A stretch of DNA of 64,000 nt, from NCBI RefSeq assembly GCF_022539665.2, contig NC_081331.1:6594034-6658033 (forward strand), in the 5' to 3' direction. The translations under genes and the position numbers were made by a program. The stretch comes from Daphnia carinata (Eukaryota; Arthropoda; Branchiopoda; Diplostraca; Daphniidae). Below the pieces are notes generated by a model. That model had not been told where the DNA came from, did no database searches, and saw nothing but the letters and a program-made list of their open reading frames with translations. Below are positions 1 to 44,934 of this stretch, piece by piece (position 1 is the stretch's first letter; the number at the start of each line of letters is the position of its first letter).

Positions 1-2538
1 GGTTTCCAAGTTGGCTGATTCAGATTGGCCATCTATGCGGGATTCTGGAGAAATCATTATCTTTTTCGACTACCTCGGATTGTTCATGATAACTTTCTCC
101 AATTTATCATGGCATCTTTTAAATATCACCTTAATCACTTTAGCATTTTATCAATCTATCGCCTGGGTCACCGTTCAGGATGGTAAATCATATTTTTTAT
201 GCATTTTTTCTAGTACTTTACTAAACATTTTTACATTTATTTTTATGCAGCCGATTCCCCGTCCGGCCAAATTGGAACTGTATGCAAGCAAGTCGTCTTT
301 AGCTGTTTGACAGGTGTTTTCCAAATTTTGGGTGGATTTTTCGCTGCTTGGCTAGTAGTGGGTGTCATAACATTGGCTGGATTCACCATGTCATGGTATA
401 GTCGTCCCTACCTGCTAGTGGGGCTTTACGGGATGCCGGCTCTTGCGGTGGCGCTATTCATCTTCCTTCAAGTGTCAGCTGCGCAAGAACGAGCCCTCAA
501 ATCCACTTTCTTGGTTGAACGAGTTCAATTCGAAGGCGCAAAGCTAAATCTGACTTTGATCGTTCTCCTGACTTATATGTATGGTATTCGATCCAATGTG
601 CTCTTACTTCTTTGGCTGTTCTCGGCTATTTTTGGCCGTTGGTTTTTGGACAAGGTGTATCAGCGGAAAACTATAGGTAATAATGGTAATCTCTCAACTG
701 AATGTTAAAGGAAATTGATGGGAAAAAACTTTTAATTCGGTTGAAAGGTCAATAATCATTTTACTGTCTTGTCTATACGATAGATGGCGGTTGGCTCCTT
801 CTACATTTTTTCTCGTTCGCCGTACCCATTTTACAAACCCTTTATCTCTCCGATAGCGTCGTAATTGATTTAATTCTTCTTTTTCTCTAACCACATCCAC
901 CGAAGCTAATCAATTTTTATTTATTTATTTTTTTTTTTTACCTCACTCAATTTGTTACTAAAGATTGCACTTCTTGTACCGATTTCTGGTCGAAACGGTA
1001 TTAATTCCAACCCTGATCTATTGGTGGCCATGGTGACGGTTGCCTTTGGATTGCTGATCGCAGCATTTCTCGTATGCTCTATTTCTATTCGAATTGATTC
1101 TTTTCATGTGAAACGGGAGCTTCCGGATGACCTAGACATCTTTTTTTTTTTTCGTTCTTGGCAGTTTCCCTTGGCGAGCTTAGTCCGCCATGCCCGCCGG
1201 ATCTTGTTTCTACTGATGGCTGGCCATCTTCTTGTGGCTTTTGCAGTTACAATCACTCCTTTGGGTTTCCCTTACTCGGCCGGTCTGCTTGAAGTCAAAC
1301 CTCAGAGAGTCCAAATTCTGGTAATGCTTTGACCTGAGAGTCCAAGTCCCGGAAGATTGACCGTAAAAATTTGAGAGAGCGATAGATTTTGAACCCGCTT
1401 TTTGGTTTATATCTCTGTTTTATTTCAGCACGTTGAGAGGACCTTTTACGAGTCAAACGGGTTGGTGCGCCGGCGGGAGTCGGGGTATTGGCTTTTCGGT
1501 TGGGATCACCATATTAAACCGGAATTGCTGGCGCCACTGGAGCTAAGAGAGGGCGTCACGCGTGTCGACGAATCGCACTGTCACACCCTCCCGTACTGCG
1601 GTCTGCCTTATTACTTCCCTTATCTTAAAAGGATTCGGTAATGCACCATTTGACATGCAATCCAGCAAATGCATTAGAAAGCCGCCTATTTGAAAAAGAA
1701 AACATGTGTTTTTATCTTTCCTATTCGATGACAGATCTTCTTATTGGGCGCCGGCTCCACAACCATTAATTTACCATCCAACTCGAATCGAGTTGATTGA
1801 TCTAAAGCTTACGGGCGTAGATAAACGGAGTCTAACGTTTACGTTGACGGGTGAGCATTTATTCTGCACCGCAGCCTTGTCTAAGAATCCTTTTGCCGCC
1901 TAACGTTGAAATTCTACTTTTCTTTTACCTCCTCCATCAAACAGGGCCTGATCATATGACTTTGATGATATGGCCCATCAGTGGAGTTAAACTGGTGGGT
2001 TGGTCGGCCAGCAAAGAGCTACCGCACGCGGATTCCTTTTACACGGAACGGCCGCTTTATTTTGTGACTTACTTCTACGGCGTTCAACCCAATACGCCAT
2101 ACGAATTGACAGTCACATTAGAGGTTAGTTTTGTTTCTCATTTATTTATTTTTTGTGGCTATTTTTGGTTTTAAATATTTGACGGCCGAGGGTTTTGTAA
2201 GGGGGAAAAAAAAATCTAGTCGGTTCGTTAAGATGGTGTTAAAGTCGTAAATTGCCTTAACTAATGATTCACTTTTTTTTGTTGTTTCTTCTTTCGTTTT
2301 GTGCGTGTGTGTGTTTGTATTCCGGCTTGCACCTTTCTTGTCTTGCTTCTATGGTGTGGTGATGACGCAGGTCCCACCCTCTTTGAGTGGGAAGCAAGTG
2401 CTGGAGATGGCGGTGACGAGCCACATCCTGCACGGCCACGAATCCGTAGCAAATGAATTTGCTAGCACGTTGAAGAAGTTTCCGCCTTGGATGTACGCAC
2501 ACGGATGGACTGCCACCTACTCTCACTGGTCTTTTTAA
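1..2538 (+). CDS. ERMP1: Endoplasmic reticulum metallopeptidase 1 (ERMP1/FXNA), C-terminal exons; 5' part outside window
   Basis: Only the 3' part of the gene is present; the M28 zinc peptidase domain lies upstream of base 1. Exons read as 1-182, 251-654, 964-1320, 1429-1637, 1735-1850, 1945-2123 and 2371-2538 (TAA), joined by GT-AG introns with matching phases. The protein shows at least six hydrophobic segments, as expected for the multi-spanning C-terminal half of this ER membrane peptidase. A lumenal tail follows with family-like blocks such as ESHCHTLPYCGLPYYFP and the terminal KKFPPWMYAHGW. By family knowledge ERMP1 is an ER-membrane M28 peptidase; nothing visible here tests catalysis. 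The acceptor for the 964 exon is weakly defined and was chosen because it keeps the frame. No frameshift is seen. Confidence 0.9.
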
Positions 2539-6800: not shown

Positions 6801-9800
6801 GATGCGCGTACACAAGAATATGGTAGACGAACGAGGAAGGATTATGATGTAGCATCCGCCCACCTCGAGGAAAAAAAAACAGAAACAGTCATCAGTGAAA
6901 CGCTAGAAAATGAATAAAAACGAAGCAAAAAGAGAAACAAGGAAAAGAATGGAAAGAGGAAAAAGCCGAAAAGAACAAAGAAAGAAAAAAACATAAGGTG
7001 GATACAAAAAAAAATTATGTGGACGACAGCGGGGTATTATGAAGTCATAGGGAGTTCACGTTGGCACGATGTAACACAGCTACACTCGGATTAGCACGTC
7101 AGCTATGCCGACATCTTGCCTTCGCGCGAAACCCTCCATCAGTCACGCGGCTTCGTTGCATCGGTCGCACACATCCTGCAGGTACGGAATCGATCGCAGT
7201 TAAACAACAGTCGATGCGGAGCAATAAAAATTCAAGCGCCATGGAAATCGCCGGTGTAATGGCTACGACACACCAACTCACGCTCAACGTTCAATTCGTA
7301 ACAGCATTCGTGAGTGAGCGGGCAAAGGAAGAAGTAAATAAAAAAAAATATATAGGTAAACGATGACCAGAAAAGGTAAGAATCAAAAGCAATCGAAAAG
7401 AAAAAGAGCAGGGAGTGTAGACGGAAAGAAAATAAATAAGCCAGGCCCAACTTGGAAAAGGTGGGTTTCGCTCTTTTTCTCCTTTGAGTCACGGATGAAG
7501 TTCGAGTCACGCGCTCGCACGCGCCCCTCATATAGATAAAAATACAGATACAGTACACACTTTTGCTGTCTATGTATGTAGACTTCTATAAACTCCTTGC
7601 GGCACTTAGAATGAGGGAGTCTGTAAAAAAAAAAAACAAGAAGAAGATAGGAAAAAAAGAGGGACGAAAGGCGTTGGAGGTCGGTATGGACGCAACCGAA
7701 CAGGACGGAGACGAAATCAAGACTAAAGCCGCTTCCCGGCTCCACGCGTGGGTTATCCTCTCTCTCTCGCCCTTTTTCTTATTCCCTCACCCAACTGCTC
7801 TGTTCCTGGTCCCAGGTGGTACTGGGCGTTTCACTCTTTCAACCAAAAAAAAAAAATGTACAACCTGAACCTGGGAACTACACACACACACACACCTATT
7901 CATGCATTTGAAACTTGTGCAAGTGAAACATAAAAATGAAATAAAAAATCACGCTGCCTTTTAGCTGTAGGCATAACCGGAGTAATCAACAAAGGGGTGG
8001 CTGGGTGGATTTAAACAGGAGTCTCGGGACCCTTGATGTGAAAGATAAGGATATCGCTGGAGGATCTTCTGCTTCAGAGAATAGTGACTGAAGGAAAAAT
8101 GAGTTATACACGAAGAAGCCAAGTGTTATTCCGAAAAGCGTAAGGTGATAAGCTTTTTCTTTTCGGCTACGCGAGAAAATTTAGACGGAAACTTAAAAGG
8201 TGTGTGCGTGAGATTACCGATGAAGACGCAAGATGGCCAGTCGACTGTGAAAGGCGAAAAAAAAAAGACGCAAAAGGAAAAATACACAAATAAAATATGT
8301 GACGTGATGCGTTTTAGAAGGTGAGGCAGCATCCAAGGAGTACAGGGTTGGGCAGATGAGCAAGAGTGGCCGCCGAGCGGTAGTGACGAGTGATCACGTC
8401 ACGTCTTTAACAAAACGGATGACAACCGATGCCAACATGCCGTGGGGTTGGTCTCTATATTCACCCAACCCACCCTTTTCTCGTAACTACCCACGCCTAT
8501 ATTTTCCCATTTTTCTTCTTTTGATTTGCCGGATCTAGAAGTGGGAATGTTTTCTAATTTTTTTTTTTTTTTTTTGTTTTCTCCTTTCTTTTTTTAAGGA
8601 AACAATTTCTGGTTGTCGGCAGGGGGAGAGAGAGAGCGCCTTCCTCCGCAGAATCCGCGCCGCCGACACGTTGCATGTATAGAATGTATACACACCATGC
8701 GCGTCTATATACATTCACGGCTTTACCTCCCACGAGTTCCGAGACGCGAAGAGGGGTTGGTTCGTTTTCTCATAAATAAATAATTACCATAGCTGGGGAT
8801 TCAGACGTGTTTTGGTGGATGGATGTATACACCTCTGGCTAGCGGACCTGTAAAAAAATAGCTGTCTCGATTGATGCCTCGGTTAAAGCAGCTGCTCACG
8901 GGGGTTGAAAATCAACAGTCACAACGAATATTGATCAGGTTCCGAAGATCTGAATAAATGAAAAACATACATAGATCGGCGTAAAAATGTTGTACTTGTG
9001 CTTCTACAATTCTCGAAAGTATGTAGACATCATTTTGGTGTGGATGCGCGGACGGAGTTGCATTTGGGTGGGTGGTTTAGGTGATGTGGAGTCTTTGCCC
9101 CGCGCGTGTGCACGTAAAAATCGAATGACTATTAAACAAAAGAAAAAAATCGAAGGACATGGAGAGAATGAGTTGACATTATGATGAATGGGGAGTTGAG
9201 ATCTTATCTTTTACTATTCACCGAACGCATCGTGATTCAAACGCGTGCTGATGACGTAGCCAAAATATGTTTTTTCTTCGAGGTCTTTCTCCCGAATGGC
9301 TTTTTCTTAAATACCAACACATATGACGGGCCAATATACACCCGCTGCTTTTCCAGCTGTATAAGGAGGCAACAGGAATATTAGAAAACCTAAAGGTAAG
9401 AGACAAGGTATAGGATCGATCTTGCTTTACAATATCCAAACAGTTTCTTATGTTGTTTAAGTTGCACAAGAGAGCCCATCTCTCGTCAGAAACATGGTAA
9501 GGCTCTCTGGTCCAGTCAAGAAGTTAACGTCTATCTGGAAGTTTTTATTACTGTTTGACTGTTTGTTTTTTTTTAAACCAGCAGTGTGGGCTATTCGCAT
9601 GAAGAACGGTGAAAGGAAACAAATAGATACAGCGGAACAATTATTATTCCGAACTATAGGAACTGTGGAATGAAAAAGTCATTTGGTAAAAGATAATGAA
9701 TAAACGAACTTATTCGATATCTAATTTTCCTTAATGGGTTTCCTCCCCCGGTGGAGGTGATTACGAGAGAGGTTTGTTGAGAGTTCCTTCGGTACACTAG

Positions 9801-29514: not shown

Positions 29515-32500
29515 ATGGTTGGTACGAAGAGGACTGTCCGCAAAATGAGTCCGGAGTTACCAAAGCCTCCAGTGGACCACTTTTGTGAGCTTCAAAAACT
29601 GCTTTCTCCAACGCTGAGTGAGGTATGAGAACGATTTTTGTGTCACGTAAAATAACCCTTTTTAATCCCGTTGTTTCGCAATTTATCTGCCAATTATTGT
29701 CTTTCTCGTTATTTAGTACAGTAGCATAATAAAGCTATAACTAATCAACGCGTGTCAATGGAAAAGAATCAAAATTAGTTAAATTTTGGCACAATTCAAT
29801 GGGCTTATTGAATTGCAAAAAAAAAAAAATACAGGATGAAAAAGAATTCCTTACGATATGTTACTATCGTTCTGACCAAGAGCCGAGAGCAGTTGAAATC
29901 ATATCGGATTATCTGGACCGAGGAGTTAACGTCAACGTCATATCCGCGTATTCTGCTACTGCCCTCGATCTTGTCTGTTTGACGAACTCCAAGCCGAACG
30001 CCATTGACCTAGTTCGCTTGCTACTACAAGTAATTTTCGAATCTTTAACAAATAAAATACGAATAATAATCACGTTGTTCTATTTTTCTCAGCACGGCGC
30101 AAATCCGAATAAAAGATCTGCCGACTCGAGCACGCCATTACATAAGCTTATATGGACCAATCATAGCGCCACTCTTATTCCACTGATGTCTCTTCTCATC
30201 CAGTACGGAGCGGATGTTAATGCCCGCCAAGAGAACGATGAAAATGCTTTACACAGTAAACTGGTTTTGATTATCTTCCTCGATTTCTGCCATTGTACTT
30301 AATTCACTGCCTAATTAATCATCAGAGTTGCTACGAGTGAATCAAACGCCCGACTTACTTTGCGCCGTGCGTCTGTTAGTTGAGAGCGGGATCCGAATGA
30401 ACGAGAACGGTGGTCGGGCCAAAGGATTTGGATCGGCGCTTCACATATTATGCGAGGCCAATCAAACGTCACATCTGCTTAACGTGGCCCGATGTTTGGT
30501 TGAGAGTGGAACTTGTGTGAATTTGAGAGATGACAAAAACAATACTGTCCTTCACATCCTATGTCGCTACAACCAAACCGACCATCTACTTCCCGTGATG
30601 CGATTTTTCGTAGAAGCTGGCATGACGGCAACAGATGTAACGGCCAAGAACGCACAAGGCCAGACTGCGCTTCACGTACTATGTCAGTATAACCAAACGA
30701 AAGAGTTACCAAGCGCCGTCGAATTCCTTGTTCAAAATGGCTTTCATGGATCGAACACTAGTAACTCGCAGTCGGCACTGTCATTTGTATGCAAATACAA
30801 TCAGACGGATCAGCTACCTGCTGCGATGAAATTGCTAATCCCTTTGGAGGATGTTAATCAGACAGATTATTATGGCATCCGCGCTACTCATTTATGCGCG
30901 CAATATCAGAAAGCTTGTATCATCACGTCGCTGAACATTTTGGCTGATAACGGTGCGGATCTCGCGGCCACTAACTCGGACGGTGAAACCATTTTGCATC
31001 TGACGTGTCAGTACGCTGATAAGCTCAATTTATTTTTATTTTTTTCATCGCTGAGTGAAGAACTCGTACGGAAGCTGGTCGATTTGCCAGATGCACTTGG
31101 CAGGACACCCCTTCATCAAGCAGCTAAGAGTGGTTGCATGAAAACAGTTCAGTTCTTGGCTGGTTTCGTCAGTACCCGTATTTTGGACGTCAATGGCAAA
31201 TGCTTCATCAATTATGTGGATAACTTTGTACGACAGAAAGGTACTCCTCTGTGTACCTGCTGCTCGTGGGACAGCTCTTTCGTTCTGAAGGATATTGACA
31301 ACCTTCACCGAAATCTCTACTCCAAACCGACAGTTCAAGCGACTTGTATTCCGTGCTCTATGGCTAGGATAGAAGCCTCCATTCCAACTCACATCGACCA
31401 CGTCTACATTTTCAATGCGACAGACAACTACGTCAGAGCACCGCAAATCAACCATTGGGAGAATTTGTTGCGGGTTTGGAACAATCTGGACGATAAATTA
31501 GATTTCGCTGGTAGGTACATATAGCAGATTTTATTTACAATTCATTACGTTGTATAACTTTTAAAGTAGTAATTCAATCGTAGCAATTGGGATACATTTT
31601 CTTGTTTATCTTTCGTTTAGCTGTGACTGCTGTTGCAGAAATCGGTATGAGATGCGGCCGATTGTGTGTCTATCGAAATTGCGTCTGGTGCCACCTCCAA
31701 TTATCCGTCAACAGTTACATCCGGTGTTTAATCGACGAGGTAGAGAAACTGGACCCTCGTTTTGCTACGCAGCGTCTCATCTTCTATGGAAGCAGCGCTG
31801 AACAAACGAGGCTTTTTCAACTGGACGAATTTGATTTCCTGGTGGTGCTGTCGCATTTTGTCGAAGACAAAGACGATTGCGGCTGCGTATCGTATTGTGG
31901 CAACAGCCAGGCTACCTTCCTGTGTCACGAGAATGGGCGACATGGAATCTCCTCCGGAAGAGCTGTTTATTATTTCTACCAACTTCTCCGAGCAGCAACA
32001 AAACGCGTTGGTTGTTTCAACATCCATGTTCGTGACATCTCGTTTGGCGAGACTTGCACGACGCTCCACCTCACATTTTGTGGTTACGGCCAGGTTATAT
32101 CTATTAGTATCGACATCACTATTGGTATATCTCGTTCTAACTTGCTGCGGCCTGGAAGCGTTAGAAGGTTTCCAACATCTTTGCGTGACATGACATCATC
32201 ATCGGATAATTCGGAGGAAGAAACCGAATACTTAGTACCGTTTCGTGACAAATGTGGCCCACCGGAATGGCGACTGTCTTACCCTACTCTAGAGGTGAGA
32301 AGTGTTGATTAGAATTTCGGAATGTGTTCGTCGTGAAGTGACGAGAATGCGCGATAGAACAAAGCAATCCACTCTAATAATTGTTAAATTGAACTTCTAG
32401 AGGGATACGTTACTACAAACTGGCGAAGAAGTTCGCATGTGTTACCGTGTTCTTAAACTGCTGGTAATGCTGTGTCAACGAAATATATCAGCGTATGCTG

Positions 32501-35935: not shown

Positions 35936-38252
35936 TTAGGCTTTACGTTTGCGAAATCGAAGGTATTTACTCAGACATGTTTCCCATTGCATGGTTTGCC
36001 ACACCTCTACTTGTTTTGACAATTCATTGATTTCTCCCTGAACACGTCGTCTAAGTAAATCTTCTAGATCACAAGAGGAATTTTCGTCCAAATATTCTTC
36101 TGACAAAACCTTACAGAGAGCAAGGATAAAAGAACTACCCAGATGCGTTATTTCAGCAGGATTATTAGCCTTTTCTTGGAATAACCGATAGGATTCGAAG
36201 CCGGCCAGAGCTGCTTTGATAGTTATGAAATCCATTAGTGGAGGATACTTCAGAACGTCTTGTCTTATTTTGATTTCAAGGTTGGTGTTAATTTCCGCTT
36301 TTGGCGTTCGGACTGTGGAAGGTGATTGCCATTTACCTGGATAGCAGAAATACAAAATCAAATTATTTCGCACGAAGGCTATTGATAAACTGAGAAATGT
36401 GAGTAGATGAGTTACAAACCGAAAGCAAATGAAAAAGTATCGCGAATGTGGGAAAGCCAGTCCGTTTCATTTAGTGGCACCTGACAAGCCTGGACGATGA
36501 AAATTTTCGGTTTGCCGCATAGACTGGGGCAATTATTTAAAGAGAACTCGTACTTGAGTTCATTAATATTAACGAATCGACCATCGGAGCATAGGATTGC
36601 GTTTTCGACTCCATGAGACAAAAGACACACAACAAGGCAACCATAATCCTTCCAATTTCTTTTGGCCAGATTACTGATTTGGGTTTTCAAATTAACGGAT
36701 GCAACATTATTAAAAACTTCGGTTTCGAAACCCCATTTTTTAAACGTATCCTGTAACGCATCTCGGTCCTTGTCGCTCCCTCCGCGGTTCTGGTTTAAAA
36801 CACAATAAAAGTAAATCAATAAAAATGATGAGGTATTAGAACTTCCATCGTGATACCTGTTTTTTTTCTTCAAAAACCTGCTGGTTAAAGATAACACAAT
36901 GGCCACGTATCTTATAATCGTATATCGCATAACTATCATCAATGGAAGGGTTGTAATAAGGTTTGTCAAGGATTTCTTGTAACGTTGGACGTGCGCTCTC
37001 TTCAAAATTCAACATCGACTCTATAAGCTTTACCAAGTCTTCGTTCATTTTTTTTTCTTCCTTAGTTTCACTGAGAACGAACTTATAGTGCTTTTTGTAG
37101 TCTGAATAGTTTCGAACTTGCATGTTGGCCCGACGCTGAGTGTCATTGTCGCCGAATGGATGTTTGGGTGTTTTGTTGCCCGTCCGTGCGGTTAGGACAT
37201 AGTGATAGAAACAGCCGAGAATGAAGACATCCAATTTTTTGCTAAGATCTTTTGTCGTATTCTTGCTTTCCGGTGCTTCCCATCCTTCTGATGCAGCAGA
37301 TCCCGATAGCTTTAAATCGTTCTCAGGGTCATACTTTCTGGCCAGACGAAAATCGGTTATTTTAACCACAAATCGGCATGTGCGGTTTGTGTCCGTGTCC
37401 GTTTTCACGGACGAATCCAATTTCTTAATAAGAAAGTTATTTGGCTTGATGTTTCGGTGGATGAAGTTGTTATCATGCAAGTAATTGAGCCCTCTCGTTG
37501 CCTGTCGCAGGATTTCTTTCTCTGGCAATTTCAACAGAATATCCGCATTCATGTAGAATTTATTTCCGAGCTCTCGATCCAAAAGATCTGCCACAGAACA
37601 CAGACATAGTTCTGTGGCAAGGTACCTGTGTACAAAATTTAAAAAAAGGTTTCAAAGAAAGAATAAAAGAATAAACGCAGGTTGCTGATTCCTACACAAA
37701 GTTCATATCTATTTCTTGAGAGTAATAGCGGATAAAATTTTCGTGGACTTCGAGTTCTTTCAATATTCGAAACTCCCGTTCCATTTCTTTCTTCGTCTGT
37801 TTGCCGGGGACCAGCATTGTCTTTACGATGGCTACTGGAACATCGTAGTTGTAGAACCCTTCAAAAATTTCCCTCTTTTTCGGATCTGTGGAGCTTTTTG
37901 GTTTTCCTCCTAGATTGCCGGTAAGGTACACATATTGACGACCGGCCGTTCCATCTTCGCTTTGAATGCAAGCTCGAAAAAGCTTACCGTTACTCCCATC
38001 ACATCCTGGCTTTCTTTCTACGAACAGAAATAAATTTCGCACAAGTTTCTTAGTGATTAAACGCTTTTTGATTTCTTCCACGTCAAACAAAATCACAGAA
38101 AAGTGGGACATACTGACAATTGGAGTTTCGCCCCTAATTACTGGTGTTTCAACTTGCTCGGTTGGACTGAACTCCTCAATATTGCGCCCTAGTGCCAATC
38201 GGTTGGTAGCCGCTGCAGCACTCCTAGAGTTGTCAGCCTGCTTAGAATACAT
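35936..38252 (-). CDS. Copy A: IRE1/RNase L-like pseudokinase fused to a caspase
   Basis: Exons 38114-38252, 37696-38017, 36857-37625, 36420-36789 and 35936-36336 (TAA) give 666 aa with all phases agreeing. Residues of about 75-385 are a kinase fold closest to IRE1/RNase L: VHENFIRYYSQE, YLATELC, GLNYLHDNNFIHRNIKP, SEGWEAPE, LDVFILGCFYHYVLT, HPFG and LNFEESARPTL. The catalytic Asp is Asn (HRN, 210-212) and DFG is DFR (245-247), so catalysis is unlikely although VAIVK keeps a lysine. From about 390 the sequence becomes a caspase: CVIFNQQVF, SDKDRDAL, CLLSHG (H469) and IFIVQACQ (C512), then a small subunit with PPLMDFITIKAALAGFESY and ILALCKVLSEEYL. Both catalytic residues are present. There is no KEN nuclease, CARD or DED. 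The kinase replaces the usual prodomain, suggesting a caspase activated by kinase-domain dimerisation. Confidence 0.88.
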
Positions 38253-38592
38253 TTTTTATTTTTCGAACGTGGCCCATTCACTTTTTCTTCAAATGGACTA
38301 AAGCACTATTCTGTGTACGTGACACAGTGTTTGATAAGTAGCCTGCTTCTGTCCAAGTCGTTCTTCAACTATTCGTTGTGTCCGTTAACTGAACGTTTTC
38401 TCATATCAGAGATATTTACGCATTGCTTAAAACTTATCTACAGTAAGTTGTTCGCTTTATGCCGGTGTATTGCACCATATGTTATATCAGTTGTTAACAG
38501 ATTAACTTTTTCACCCGTAGATATGAAATTATAGCTGGCCATTGCCTGTCCTATCAGTTAACAGTAAAATTTACTAAGTAAATAGCCACACA
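38253..38592 (-). promoter_or_regulatory. Conserved 5' flank of pseudokinase-caspase copy A
   Basis: The sequence upstream of the copy A start (e.g. GTGACACAGTGTTTGATAAG, then GTTGTTAACAGATTAACTTT) is strongly conserved upstream of copies B (about 40905-41220) and C (about 44310-44633). It separates the caspase gene from the divergent small ORF, so it should hold both promoters. Individual motifs cannot be assigned. Confidence 0.5.
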
Positions 38593-38778
38593 ATGGGATC
38601 TCAAGCTAGCGCATGTGTGGAATCTACTAATGCATGGAACGAAAAGCCCATACAAGCTGGACAAATTTCTTGCAATCAACCTGGACCCATGCAGTGCTCA
38701 AGTTGGAATAGAGTAGCATATCCTAATTGCTATTATGATTTCCAGCAAATAGCTGATGTTACTAATCATTTCATTTAA
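38593..38778 (+). CDS. Small ORF with N-myristoylation-type start, divergent to copy A
   Basis: A 61-codon frame begins MGSQAS and ends YDFQQIADVTNHFI. The MGxxxS start is the consensus for N-myristoylation, and five Cys are present. The same ORF start lies at the matching position upstream of copies B and C, but B has a stop at codon 4 (41221) and C is frameshifted and ends early. Either copy A keeps a small real gene or all three are remnants of a larger one, possibly the first exon of a lost gene. It ends 8 bp from the tRNA-Ile 3' end. Confidence 0.35.
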   Translation: MGSQASACVESTNAWNEKPIQAGQISCNQPGPMQCSSWNRVAYPNCYYDFQQIADVTNHFI

Positions 38779-38786
38779 AAGTGCTT

Positions 38787-38893
38787 TCTCCAGGCGAGGC
38801 TCGAACTCGCGACCTCGGCATTACTTCGTTCTTTAGTCACAATAAGTTACTGTCATATAAGTACCTTGCGCTAACCAACTGCGCCACTGGAGA
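38787..38893 (-). tRNA. tRNA-Ile(UAU) with intron, copy 1
   Basis: Minus strand reads TCTCCAGTGGCGCAGTTGG... and ends with the matching acceptor arm CTGGAGA (7 bp). The D-loop (TTAGCGC), anticodon loop (CTTATA...AT), T-arm (GCGAGTTCGAGCCTCGC) and B box are normal. An intron of about 33 nt follows the anticodon UAU after the usual one-base gap, as is typical for eukaryotic tRNA-Ile(UAU). Lies directly beside the small divergent ORF. Confidence 0.92.
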
Positions 38894-39148
38894 TATCATA
38901 AAGCAATGATGCTTTCACGAGGAAGAATGAGATTAGATACGCGATAGACGTTCCTAACGGATCGGGATGATAAGAATGAAGAAAAAAACAATTTTTTTGC
39001 TAGATGGATACTAAGGAACTGTTGAAAATCTGAGAAGTTAAGTTACATACGGAAAATAGCACCATAAGCGCGAAATGGCGGACGATGAATTGCCGTGAGC
39101 AATGATTCCCGTGTTACCCTGTTTCAGGCTTCCTTGACGAGGCATTTA

Positions 39149-40879
39149 TCAGTATTCCTCGAAAGTTTTCTTTATTTCCTTGATTTGATAAGCTTCGAAG
39201 CCGGCCAGAGCTGCCTTGATTGTTATGAAATCCATTAGTGGAGGATTCTTCCTAGCGTCTTGTATCATTTTGATTTCATGGGTGGCATTAATTTTCTTTT
39301 TTGGCCATTTGACTGTGGAAGGGGATTGCCACCTACCTGGAAAGCAGGCATACAAAAAAATCTAATTATTCTGGATGAAGGGTATTAATGAACTGAGAAA
39401 TGTGAGTAGACGAGTTACAAACCGAAAGCAAATGAAATGGTATTGCAAATGTGGGAAAAGAGGTCGTTGTCATTCAGTGGCACCTGGCAAGCCTGGACGA
39501 TGAAAATTTTCGGTTTGCGGTACAGGCTGGGGCAATTATTTAAAGAGAACTCGTACTTGAGTTCATTAATATTAGCGAATTTGCCGTCGTAACACATGAT
39601 TGCGTTCTCGACTCCATGAGACAAAAGACACACAACAAGGCAACCATAATCCTCCCAATCTCTTTTGGCCAGATTTTTGATTTCGGATTCCAAATCAAAC
39701 GATGCAACATTTTCAAAAACTCTGGTTTCGAAACCCAATTTTTTAAACGTCTTCTGTAACGCATCTCGGTCCTTGTCGCTCCCTCCGCGGTTCTAGTTCA
39801 AAACAAAATAAAAGTAAATCAATAAAAGTGATGGAGGATCAACTGGCATTTAGGCATTATAACTTCCATCGTGATACCTGTTTTTTATCTTGAAAAACCT
39901 GCTGGTTAAAGATAACACAAAGGCCAGGTATCTTATAATCGTCTAGCGCATAAACATCATCATCATTGGAAGGGTTGTAATAAGGATTGTCAAGGACTTC
40001 TTGTAACGTTGGACGTGCGCTCTCTTCAAACTTCAACATCGACTTTATAAGCTTTGCCAAGTCCTCGTTCTGATCATTGAGAACGAACTTATGGTCTTCT
40101 TTGTAGACTGAATAAATTGAAGATCGCATGTGGACCCGGCGCTGAGTGTCATTGTCGCCGAATGGATGTCTGGGTGTTTTGTTGTCCGTTCGCGCGGTTA
40201 GGACGTAATGATAGAAACAGCCGAGAATGAAGACATCCAATTTTGTACTGAGATCTTTTGTCGTATCCGTGCTTTCCGGTGCTTCCCAGTCTTCAACATA
40301 CAAAATAAAAAAAAAAAGGTTTTCAAAGAAAGAATAAAAGAATAAACGCAGGTTGCTAATTCCTACACAAAGTCCTTATCTATTTCTTGAGAGTAATAGC
40401 GGATAAAATTTTCGTGGACTTCTAGTTCTTTCAATATTCGAAACTCCCGTTCAATTTCTTTCTTCTGCTGTTGGTGTTTCTCAGACAGTTGGCTGGGGAT
40501 CAGCATCGTCTTTACGATGGCTACTGGAACATCGTAGTTGTAGAACCCTTTCAAAATTTCTCTCTTTTTCGGTGCTGAGGAGGGTTTTGGTTTTCCTCCT
40601 GGATTGCCGGTCAGGTGCAAATATTGATAAACGGCCGTTCCATCTTCGCTTTGAATGTAAGCTCGAAAAAGCTTACCGTTACTTCCATCACATCCTGGCT
40701 TTCTTTCTACAAAGAGAAATAAATCTCAAACAAGTTTCTGAGTGATTAAACTAAAGTTCTTCTACGTCAAATAAAATCACAGGAAAGTGAGACATACTGC
40801 CAATTGGAGTTCGCTCTTTAAGTAGAACGGGTAGCGACGCTTCGTGGTCCGATTCAACCGGTGTTTCAACAGAAGACAT
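39149..40879 (-). pseudogene. Copy B: broken pseudokinase-caspase gene (internal deletion, chimeric 3' end)
   Basis: Recognisable exons are 40798-40879 (ATG), 40367-40706, a kinase remnant of about 39880-40292, 39423-39792 (p20 with CLLSHG and IFIVQACQ) and 39149-39336. Compared with A and C, about 110 residues are missing between the αC region and WEAPES. That removes the hinge, the HRN loop and the DFR motif, and no AG acceptor in the remaining sequence restores the frame. The caspase small subunit stops after LAGFEAYQIK. The last codons and stop come from DNA homologous to the far 5' flank of copy C (45065-45238), giving a clear junction near 39183. The remaining domains are 80-90 percent like A by eye. 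It may still be transcribed as a caspase-only fragment. Confidence 0.8.
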
Positions 40880-41330
40880 TCTGTGTTCTTCGAACATGTT
40901 CCGTTCGCTTTTTCTTCAAATGTACTACAGCAATATTCTGTGTACGTGACACAGTGTTTGATAAGTAGCCTGCTTCTGTTCAAGTCGTTCTTCAATTATT
41001 CGTTGTGTCCGTTAACTGAATGTCTTCTAATATCAGAGATATCTACGCACTTGTCGGAAATTTATCTGCAGTAAGTCGTCCGCTTTACGACAGTGTATTG
41101 CACAATACGTCATATCAGTTGTTAACAGATTAACTTTTTCACCCGTGGATATGAAATTTTAGCTGGCCTTTGCCTGTCCTATCAGTTAACAGCAACATTT
41201 ACTAAGTAAATAGCCACACAATGGGATCTTAAGCTAGCGCATGTGTGGAATCTACTAATGCATGGAACGAAAAGTCTATACAAGCTGGACAAAATTCTTA
41301 CAGTGTAAAAAAATAATAAAAAGTAATAAA
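40880..41330. repeat. Duplicated 5' flank, unit B
   Basis: Matches 38278-38680 and 44310-44740 almost base for base, including the small-ORF start at 41221, here ended by TAA at codon 4. Homology stops near 41305, before the tRNA, so unit B lacks the tRNA-Ile. Confidence 0.85.
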
Positions 41331-42035
41331 TAAAAAACTCTACCATTATCAGGCAAAGGCGGTATTATGGTAGAAGATATGGCCGAGACGGCGGGCGTTC
41401 AAACGGACCGTATCTTAAAAAATTTATTTCGTTTTCCAAGCAGAAATTTGCGAGCTCAGCAAACCCGCACTAAGATCAAAGGTACGGTACATCACACATC
41501 CAGTTACGCAATACGAATAAAATCGAACACATAATAAACACTTACTGATAGTGCCACTAGGGAAACAAGATGATTTCATACACCATATATTCGTTGTTTC
41601 ATAAACGCCGATGAAGTTTTTGGCTTCAAACAGTCTGATTTTCTAAGAAAATCATCTACGAGCAATAAATATATGGGACACCTAGAGTTCATTTTCATTG
41701 TTCAAGAACAATTTAGATCTCTCATCGATTATTATTGGATATTACATGCGAACGTATTGTTGCAAACTAAGCACGTATAAAGCGAAATCCGATGTAGCGA
41801 ATGAAAACGAATACGAGTAGGGTAGAAAAAATGCTATATTAAGCTTAAGACAAAAAACGGGACGATGCGGAAAAATGGCGACACGACAGGTAATCGGCAG
41901 AAAAGAATCTACGCGATTGACACGTCATGAATCATGCCGTTGTCTACGAAAAAGAACAAAAGACTTAAGACGAGAGAAACAATAGGCCAACAAATTAAAA
42001 GAAGGAAGGGAAATCAGGGCGTGCGCGAACCCCGT
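41331..42035. other. Spacer between array copies
   Basis: Begins with a block shared with 35338-35400, then AT-rich DNA up to the copy C stop codon. No gene seen. Confidence 0.5.
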
Positions 42036-44285
42036 CTAAGTTGCAATGGCAACTCGGGAACACGTATCTTTTTCGAAATTCAGTGACGTAAGGTCAATAC
42101 CTTCGGTGCAACTATTGCGAAATCGAATGTTTTTACTTAGGCATGCTTCCCATTGCATAGTTTGCCAGCTATTCTTTGAATTTTTGTCGATTTCGTTCTG
42201 AACACATCTAAGCAACTCTTCAAGATGACGAGGTGACGTTCCCGTTTCCTCCTCCAAATATTCATTTGACAAAACCTTACACAGTGCTTGAATGAACTTG
42301 CTACCTTTCGTGCGACTTCGCTTTGCATTAAGACCAGGTAGAGTTGATTTGATTGTAATGAAATCCATAAGTGGTGGAATTCTTTGAGCGCTGTCCTGAA
42401 TTTTCATTTGTTGTAACTTTGCGTAAGCGCTGTTTACCAATTGAACTCTGGGTGGTGGTGATTGCAATGTACCTAGATAGCAGGAATACAAAAGATCAAG
42501 TTATTCTGCATGAAAAGTATCGATGAACTGAGAAAGACGAGAAAATAAATTTCAAACCGGTTAAATACAAGTTACCTGAAACGGAGGTTGATAGGGAACG
42601 ACGAACAACTGTTTTTCTTTTCCGCGGTTCCGGGTTACTCTGACAAGACTGGACGATAAAGATTTTGGGTTTTCCATACAGACTGGGACAATTATTCGAA
42701 GAGAACTCGTATTTGAGCTTGGTTATGTTAACGAATTTGCTATCGTAACATAAGATTGCATTCTCAATTCCATGAGACAAAAGACATACAACTAGGCAAC
42801 CATAATTCTCGAAATTTTTTTTGTTGGCCAGTTCGTTGATTTCAGATTCTAATCCAACCGAATCTAGATTTTCGTAAACTTTAAAGTCAAAACCAAGCTT
42901 TTTAAATGTATTCTTTAACGCTTCTTTGTCCTTGTCGCTCCCTTTACGGTTCTGGTGGAAAATAAAATAAATTAATAACAAAATCTTGGAGAATTAGAAA
43001 AAACAAGTTGATTGATTGACAGGTAAGAACTTTCGTGGTACCTGTTTCGGATCCTCAAATTCTTGCTGGTTGACGATAACACAAAGACCGGGTTTAAGAT
43101 CTTGATCGGCATCTTGATCAGCATATATCATGTAATCTTCGGAAGGTTTGAAATAAGCATCATCAAAAACATTTTGTAATGTTGGACGTTTGTCCTCGTC
43201 GAACTTCAACATCCACGTTATAAGCTTTTCCACCTTTTCCTTCTCCTTGATCTTTTTGGGAAGCGACAGACGGCCATCCGTATATAATGAATAAGACGGA
43301 TTTCGGATGTTTGTCGCACGCTCTTCTACAGTGCCGAATGGATGTCTGGGTTTTTCGTGGCTCGTCCATGCGGTTAGGACATAATGATAGAAACAACCGA
43401 GAATGAAGACATCCAATTTTGTGCTGAGTTTTTTTGTCGTATCCGTGCTTTCCGGTGCTTCCCATCCTTCTGATGCAGCTGGTCCCGATAACGTCGAATC
43501 ATTTTCAGGATTATATTTTCTCGACAAGCGAAAATCTGTTATTTTAACCACAAATCGGTAAGAGCTTCCGCCTGCTTTGTTAATCTCTTTAATAAGAAAG
43601 TTATTTGGTTTGATGTTGCGGTGGACAAATTGGTTATTGTGCAAGTAATTGAGTCCACTCGTTGCCTGTCGCAGGATTTCTTTCTCTGGTATTTTGAGAA
43701 TATCTGTTTTCATGGGTATGTCCTTGCCGAGGGCTGGATCTAAAAGATCTGCCACAGAACACAGGCATACTTCTGTTGCAAAATACCTGTGTGCAGAATA
43801 AAAAAAAGTTTTTAAAGCAAAGCAAAAAAATAAAATAATAAACGCAGGTTGCTAATTCCTACACAAAGTTCTCGTCTCTTTCGTGAGCGTAATAGCGGAT
43901 AAAATTTTCGTGGCGTCGTAGTTCTTTCAATATTCGAAACTCCCGTTCAATTTCTTTCTTCTGCTGTTGTTCTTTTTCCTGCTGTTGGCTGGAAACCAGC
44001 AATGTCCTTACGATGGCTACTGGAACATCGTTGTTGTAAAACCCTTCAAAAACTAGTCTCTTATTATGGGAGAAATATTGAGTAAGGTTCCCCTCATTTG
44101 TTTCAATGTAACCTTCAAAAAGTTTACCGTCCCCTAAAGAGAAAATTTCAAACAAGTTTTTTAATGATTCAATGCCGTTTGGTTTCTTCCGCGTCCAACA
44201 AAATCACAGGAAAGTGAGACGTACTGATAATCGGAGTTTTCGCCTTATGTAGCTTCTTCGCATTGGGTGGCAACGGAGAAAACAT
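42036..44285 (-). CDS. Copy C: IRE1/RNase L-like pseudokinase fused to a caspase
   Basis: Exons 44225-44285, 43863-44133, 43042-43786, 42576-42951 and 42036-42472 give 629 aa with all phases agreeing and the same intron positions as copy A. The kinase part has VAIVRT, RHENFIRYYAHE, YFATEVC, HRNIKP (no catalytic Asp), DFRLSRKY (DFR for DFG), SEGWEAPES and HPFG, so it is a pseudokinase like A. The caspase part has VCLLSHG (H419) and IFIVQSCQ (C462). After the Cys the linker is basic (EPRKRKTVVRRS) and differs fully from copy A, where PLNETDWLSHIRD follows. The small subunit (PPLMDFITIKSTLPG, FIQALCKVLSNEYLEE) is intact, with a C-terminal extension of about 25 residues. The N-terminal region before the kinase is shorter than in A. 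This is the most diverged copy and looks functional. Confidence 0.88.
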
Positions 44286-44756: not shown

Positions 44757-44826
44757 CATATCCTGATTGCTACTAAGATGTCCAGCAAACAGCTGATGTT
44801 ACTAATCATTTTATTTAAAAGTGCAT

Positions 44827-44934
44827 TCTCCAGGCGAGGCTCGAACTCGCGACCTCGGCATTTCTTCGTTCTATTATTCGCAATGAGTTACTGTCATATA
44901 AGTACCTTGCGCTAACCAACTGCGCCACTGGAGA
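44827..44934 (-). tRNA. tRNA-Ile(UAU) with intron, copy 2
   Basis: Same mature sequence as the 38787 gene, with a slightly different intron (…GTAACTCATTGCGAATAATAG…). Acceptor stem TCTCCAG/CTGGAGA is intact. It lies at the equivalent place relative to copy C, showing that it was duplicated with the array. Confidence 0.92.

Follow-up and report, generated by a model that had tools for sequence, protein, structure and literature searches.

A Daphnia gene family joining an IRE1-type pseudokinase to a caspase

The region considered here, hereafter the window, is a stretch of 64,000 nucleotides (C1:6594034-6658033) of the 108 Mb genome of Daphnia carinata. Between window positions 35936 and 44285, its minus strand carries three tandem copies (A, B and C, with B in the middle) of a gene encoding a kinase followed by a caspase. 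The kinase-caspase architecture of A, C and their relatives is secure, and the domain order, the conserved junction, the loss of kinase residues, the retention of caspase residues and the spread within Daphnia can all be read from the sequences. We consider it somewhat more probable than the alternatives together (roughly 55%) that the products are cytosolic initiator-type caspases, in which an IRE1-derived pseudokinase, acting as a dimerization module, would replace the CARD or DED prodomain.

Kinase and caspase in one reading frame

Copies A and C are intact genes of five exons, encoding proteins of 666 and 629 residues, respectively, and the four introns of each are GT..AG and in phase. Both models agree in every letter with D. 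carinata proteins annotated by NCBI as uncharacterized, LOC130691350 (P0008) for A and LOC130691221 (P0001) for C. In both, Pfam places a Pkinase domain (E 4.9e-33 in A, 9.4e-35 in C) ahead of a Peptidase_C14 domain (E 1.4e-35 and 1.5e-44). An earlier note on this DNA had described a kinase fold running through in-phase exons into a caspase p20/p10, and the gene models and Pfam matches confirm this for A and C. The motifs it quoted are present, as are the junctions at 36857/36789 (A) and 43042/42951 (C), and the profile search of the two proteins matched kinase and caspase alike. To these two has to be added a third, damaged copy between them.

As the NCBI models are predictions, a gene prediction that merged two adjacent genes has to be considered, and the D. 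sinensis protein P0039 (1194 aa) may, judged from its length alone, represent two such merged neighbors. Exon 3 speaks against this for A and C. It is free of stops over about 256 codons in A and 248 in C and encodes the kinase hinge, the C-lobe and about 16 caspase codons, so that kinase and caspase are joined without any splice prediction; a gene-model artifact was rejected on this ground. The linker between the domains measures 13-19 residues. In the D. carinata genome, 12/12 strong kinase loci (E 8.1e-39 or better for the main exon, against 3.0e-16 for the next other kinase) are followed on their own strand, after 52-100 bases, by a caspase p20 match, with the same order and similar spacing throughout, and the junction recurs across five Daphnia species. 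In addition, P0017 is an unbroken frame of 745 aa on a contig of 2381 bases, whereas the D. carinata paralog P0018 (707 aa) occupies about 2631 genomic bases with introns. The P0017 contig therefore most likely represents a spliced transcript in which the two halves are joined. A merger of neighboring genes is, in our view, extremely improbable.

All exons lie on the minus strand. In copy A, exon 1 (38114..38252) holds the start ATG and the N-terminal region, exon 2 (37696..38017) the kinase N-lobe and helix C, exon 3 (36857..37625) the hinge, C-lobe, linker and, from 36904, the first caspase strand, exon 4 (36420..36789) the p20 and exon 5 (35936..36336) the p10 and stop. The corresponding exons of copy C are 44225..44285 (with the start ATG), 43863..44133, 43042..43786 (first caspase strand from 43089), 42576..42951 and 42036..42472. 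In copy B, at about 39152-40879, the beginning of kinase exon 3 is missing and the p10 is shortened. Its 3' part is the NCBI protein P0043 of 269 aa (kinase end, p20 and shortened p10), with coding pieces at 40129-39878, 39792-39421 and 39334-39152. Counterparts of exons 1 and 2 of A lie upstream, with a start near 40879 and exon 2 at about 40706-40367.

The kinase half and the caspase half

A protein search gave 38 matches, of which 23 (P0001-P0023) constitute the family and form our alignment, A1, with P0039-P0043, P0095, P0097 and P0109 left out. In this alignment the kinase half is a pseudokinase that has consistently lost catalytic residues. HRD has become HRN and DFG has become DFR in 22/22 aligned rows (HRN Asn at 37453-37451 and DFR Arg at 37348-37346 in exon 3 of A; 43617-43615 and 43530-43528 in exon 3 of C). 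The beta-3 Lys column contains K in 13 rows, R in 7 and Q in 2, and the glycine-loop motif GxGxxG is found in 0/22 rows by a test that does recognize it in the IRE1 of D. carinata and of humans. The DFG Asp (22/22), the catalytic-loop Asn (20/22) and the helix-C Glu (20/21) are retained, as would be expected if the kinase half were still active or were operated by nucleotide like IRE1. With the HRD Asp replaced by Asn and the DFG Gly by Arg in every row, no glycine-loop motif and a variable beta-3 Lys, we regard such activity as very unlikely. The same changes weaken the proposal of the earlier note that the kinase is under ligand control of the IRE1 kind, and a nucleotide-operated switch seems unlikely.

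The assignment of the kinase to the IRE1 type, one half of the IRE1/RNase L label in the earlier note, agrees with its sequence matches. An IRE1 is the best match for 17/17 fusion kinases tested, ahead of L032, L034 and the partial L035, which are other IRE1-type Daphnia kinases. In the kinase tree (17/23 members and 9 others; L035, P0069 and P0062 dropped) the fusions are placed on the IRE1 side with weak support (83/75). RNase L was not among the 60 listed PDB matches of the kinase, from which no conclusion is drawn. A kinase-only alignment comprised 10/23 members, and a structure model of the kinase alone, of low confidence, served only as support. An origin of the kinase in the large ankyrin-kinase array of this genome was considered and is not favored, given the best matches to IRE1 and the (weakly supported) tree position.

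This array, at C6:8.67-10.07 Mb, consists of many IRE1-type kinase exons, including L032 and L033 (C6:9.807-9.872 Mb). In the stretches sampled, both have ankyrin repeats followed by a kinase that keeps HRD and DFG, the order of RNase L, and a KEN search of the genome gave no match there. That search matched only at C1:1.476 Mb and C3:11.879 Mb. The latter site is distinct from the IRE1 locus (C1:1.475 Mb); the KEN match there adjoins L031, an IRE1-like kinase in degraded form (HGN, NFE), which in the kinase tree is the row nearest the fusions, on a long branch. L034 (C3:12.36 Mb) encodes an IRE1-type kinase followed by ankyrin repeats, which shares HRN and DFR with the caspase fusions but has kept GxGxxG; the common HRN/DFR may reflect shared ancestry or convergence.

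The caspase half has a caspase fold with both p20 and p10. The catalytic His and Cys occur in 22/22 rows having the column, and both are present in A (36615-36613 and 36486-36484) and C (42774-42772 and 42645-42643). The Arg, Gln and Arg of the aspartate-binding S1 pocket are kept in 21/21, 22/22 and 20/20 rows, respectively (p20 Arg and Gln at 36786-36784 and 36492-36490 in A, 42948-42946 and 42651-42649 in C). In the QACxG motif, the Q, the Cys and the next Q are found in 22/22 rows and the Gly in 19/22. The caspase had been called complete, which is right for His, Cys and p20/p10; two residues after the catalytic Cys, however, A and B have Val and C has Ser in place of this Gly.

At E 0.001, a Pfam scan of the 23 members detected only Pkinase (23/23), PK_Tyr_Ser-Thr and Peptidase_C14 (22/23). 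No CARD, DED, Dredd_N, ankyrin or KEN domain (PF06479, 0/23) and no luminal domain was found in these proteins, whereas initiator caspases, as the earlier note says, normally carry a CARD or DED prodomain. No membrane segment was detected in the 23 members (no 19-residue hydropathy mean above 1.54), the most hydrophobic stretch lying within the kinase or caspase in 22/23 and across the junction in 1/23. The genome-wide CARD search had no match and shows nothing, because its control also failed to match; the corresponding DED search gave one sub-threshold match, at C4:7.608 Mb, and none of 14 control genomes matched.

In the caspase trees, the fusions group, on a long branch, with the Dredd of D. 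carinata (L037) at 95/92 (12/23 members), and at 99/90 with a partial Dredd row (18/23 members). The test did not reject a grouping of the fusions with caspase-8 of vertebrates and a sea cucumber either (p 0.204), and the named matches outside the family, among 120 listed of 156, are mostly called caspase-8. The true Dredd is a separate gene at C3:3.459 Mb (Dredd_N, E 7.1e-18).

The family in Daphnia and the divergence of its copies

D. carinata has 12 fusion loci in three clusters: C1:5.81-5.83 Mb holds five, the window three (B included) and C2:6.05-6.08 Mb four. A thirteenth family caspase, the p20 fragment L038 (C4:419680), has stop codons within the match, with no kinase match listed there, and is probably a remnant of the fusion family. 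Of the 23 members, 22 are named as D. carinata, D. magna, D. sinensis, D. pulex or D. galeata, and the relatives from the latter four species show the same domain order. Judged from these sequences, the fusions are a Daphnia gene family present in at least five species. Their database names conflict (caspase-8, Dronc, MAP kinase 4, ire-1 and uncharacterized; NCBI/UniRef), and by annotation P0021 is a kinase half that lacks the caspase, whereas P0043 (copy B) is a caspase half that retains little of the kinase.

Among the matches listed for the profile search and for a search with the caspase half of the D. pulex member, no protein named from another genus was a fusion. Among 120 listed of 156 matches, 15 have two domains by Pfam: 12 named Daphnia proteins and three without species label (P0095 and P0097 with HRN and DFR, P0109 with HRN and an altered DFG). 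A fusion outside Daphnia is not disproved by this, because the 120 include just 12/22 two-domain members known beforehand. The protein searches scored only candidates sharing most words with the query, and the matches of the profile search include kinase-only and caspase-only pieces whose species is unassigned (P0044-P0057).

Ratios of dN to dS were calculated for the two halves in the 21 pairs among those 7 D. carinata members for which DNA was available; synonymous saturation left 5 pairs without a ratio for p20 and 6 for the kinase. For p20, dN/dS is 0.12-0.30 in 13/16 pairs and 0.49-0.64 in 3 pairs among A, P0015 and P0019; for the kinase half it is 0.58-0.89 (15 pairs). In 8 pairs resampled, which were chosen by the analyst and are not independent, the kinase ratio exceeds the p20 ratio in at least 99% of resamplings for 6/8 pairs, the exceptions being 2 A-like pairs. 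The high kinase ratio, the lost catalytic features and the partial annotations of P0021 and P0043 would suit a kinase left over without function, or serving as a passive tag for solubility or localization, on a caspase that is ordinary (executioner-like) and cleaved by an upstream protease. Yet HRN and DFR are kept in 22/22 rows, across D. pulex/galeata and D. magna/carinata/sinensis, and the mean identity of the kinase half is 57.9%, compared to 64.2% for p20 and 52.3% for p10 (19/23 members). Loss or disruption in many copies would have been the likelier fate of a domain without use; we disfavor an inert kinase and hold it to be improbable.

In 40-codon windows, dN exceeds dS at kinase codons 46-85 (3/3 pairs), 246-285 (2/3) and 286-325 (2/3), with low dN at 166-245. 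A kinase half that evolves fast around a conserved core, together with tandem duplication to 12 loci in three clusters and the many further IRE1-type kinase exons in the genome, could point to an integrated decoy. In that case, the pseudokinase would mimic the surface of IRE1 or an IRE1-type kinase, and a parasite or virus factor binding to it would fire the attached caspase. However, windows of this size are noisy and the rates are not codon-model tests of positive selection, dN likewise exceeds dS in the p20/p10 linker (486-525, 2/3 pairs) and in one p20 window (366-405, 1/3), no pathogen ligand is known, and relaxed constraint accounts for identical data. A decoy in this strict sense is a doubtful though not negligible explanation.

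Synonymous divergence also differs between the halves. In the three resampled pairs of A-like with C-like copies the kinase half has the smaller value (for A and C 0.42, against 1.06 in p20), with 0.4-0.7% of resamplings reversed; within the A-like or C-like groups the gap is not clear (5 pairs, 8-57% reversed). This difference suggests gene conversion or exon exchange, as if of exon 3, among the copies of the window and L010-L014.

The window holds several other features. Two tRNA genes (Rfam RF00005), each interrupted by an insertion, lie on the minus strand, one upstream of A (38786-38893) and one upstream of C (44826-44934). They are 92% alike over the stretch searched, were apparently duplicated along with A and C, and resemble intron-bearing tRNA-Ile(TAT). 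An ankyrin-repeat open frame (30319-31521, plus strand) adjoins the cluster, and a mir-31 precursor match (Rfam; 52.9 bits, cut-off 51) is located at 7050-7132 on the minus strand.

Proposed activation and the closest known systems

In IRE1 the effector comes immediately after the kinase, and effectors are paired when the kinases dimerize; initiator caspases are likewise activated by dimerization. The two belong to separate pathways, though both are turned on by bringing copies together. In our preferred reading, an initiator-type caspase with a pseudokinase in place of its prodomain, the kinase half would no longer phosphorylate and would retain the IRE1 job of bringing at least two chains together. 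Since the caspase occupies the position after the last kinase helix that the KEN RNase has in IRE1, kinase-domain dimers would then pair two caspase domains, and the caspases would be switched on by induced proximity, like initiator caspases. The output would be cleavage after Asp, leading to cell death or Dredd-like immune signaling. We infer the dimerization, the activation by proximity, the proteolytic activity and the role; it seems that evolution swapped KEN for a caspase behind the same kinase scaffold. More tentatively, and with a chance that we put well below even, the Daphnia IRE1 kinase module may serve immunity as a platform in the cytosol whose partners (KEN, ankyrin sensors, caspase) are exchangeable; in this family the caspase would fire when a pathogen factor or an IRE1-type partner engages the pseudokinase, as an animal counterpart of plant integrated-decoy receptors.

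The earlier note knew of no described protein of this architecture, and we found no description of a kinase-caspase fusion among the matches listed for titles and abstract beginnings in the open-license PubMed Central literature, outside which most subscription papers fall; two of the listings covered 20 of 66 and 20 of 84 matches. In the parts consulted, an immune-genome survey of D. pulex reports eight caspases, with two D. pulex paralogs in the Dredd clade, and excludes prodomains as too variable (PMC2685406). The word "kinase" does not occur in the text searched, and we would guess that the survey may have counted the caspase half of a fusion member without noticing the kinase. Papers on amphioxus and bivalve caspases describe, in the text seen, novel prodomain combinations, DED with DD and double-stranded RNA-binding domains (PMC3196919, PMC7836458), and a term search of them did not find "kinase"; a similar search of a Lepidoptera caspase paper found neither Daphnia nor kinase (PMC3141678). 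Caspases with novel prodomains thus have precedents in the amphioxus and bivalve papers; an IRE1-type pseudokinase as caspase prodomain is new as far as we found.

The fusion would link a stress-sensor module to proteolysis within one protein and offers a natural case for asking whether the kinase fold of IRE1, by itself and without catalysis, can serve as a dimerization switch. The architecture also explains the clashing names of these Daphnia genes (caspase-8, Dronc, MAPK4, ire-1), and makes the family a candidate for an immune role in a leading model of host-parasite interaction.

Of the known systems, IRE1 shares with the fusions the kinase family and a C-terminal effector directly after the kinase, and we take the kinase/effector border of the fusions to match its kinase/KEN border. 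In contrast to the fusions, with their caspase and HRN/DFR, IRE1 has a KEN effector, luminal and membrane parts and catalytic kinase residues. RNase L, an ankyrin-pseudokinase-KEN protein, likewise has a cytosolic IRE1-related pseudokinase before its effector, but its ankyrin and KEN domains are both absent from the 23 fusion members. Dredd and caspase-8 may be close on the caspase side, where the fusions branch with Dredd at 95/92, and differ in the Dredd_N/DED prodomain that the fusion members do not have. RIPK1/RIPK2-type kinases are also tied to caspase pathways; they carry death-fold domains and the caspase is recruited, whereas in the fusions the caspase sits in the same chain.

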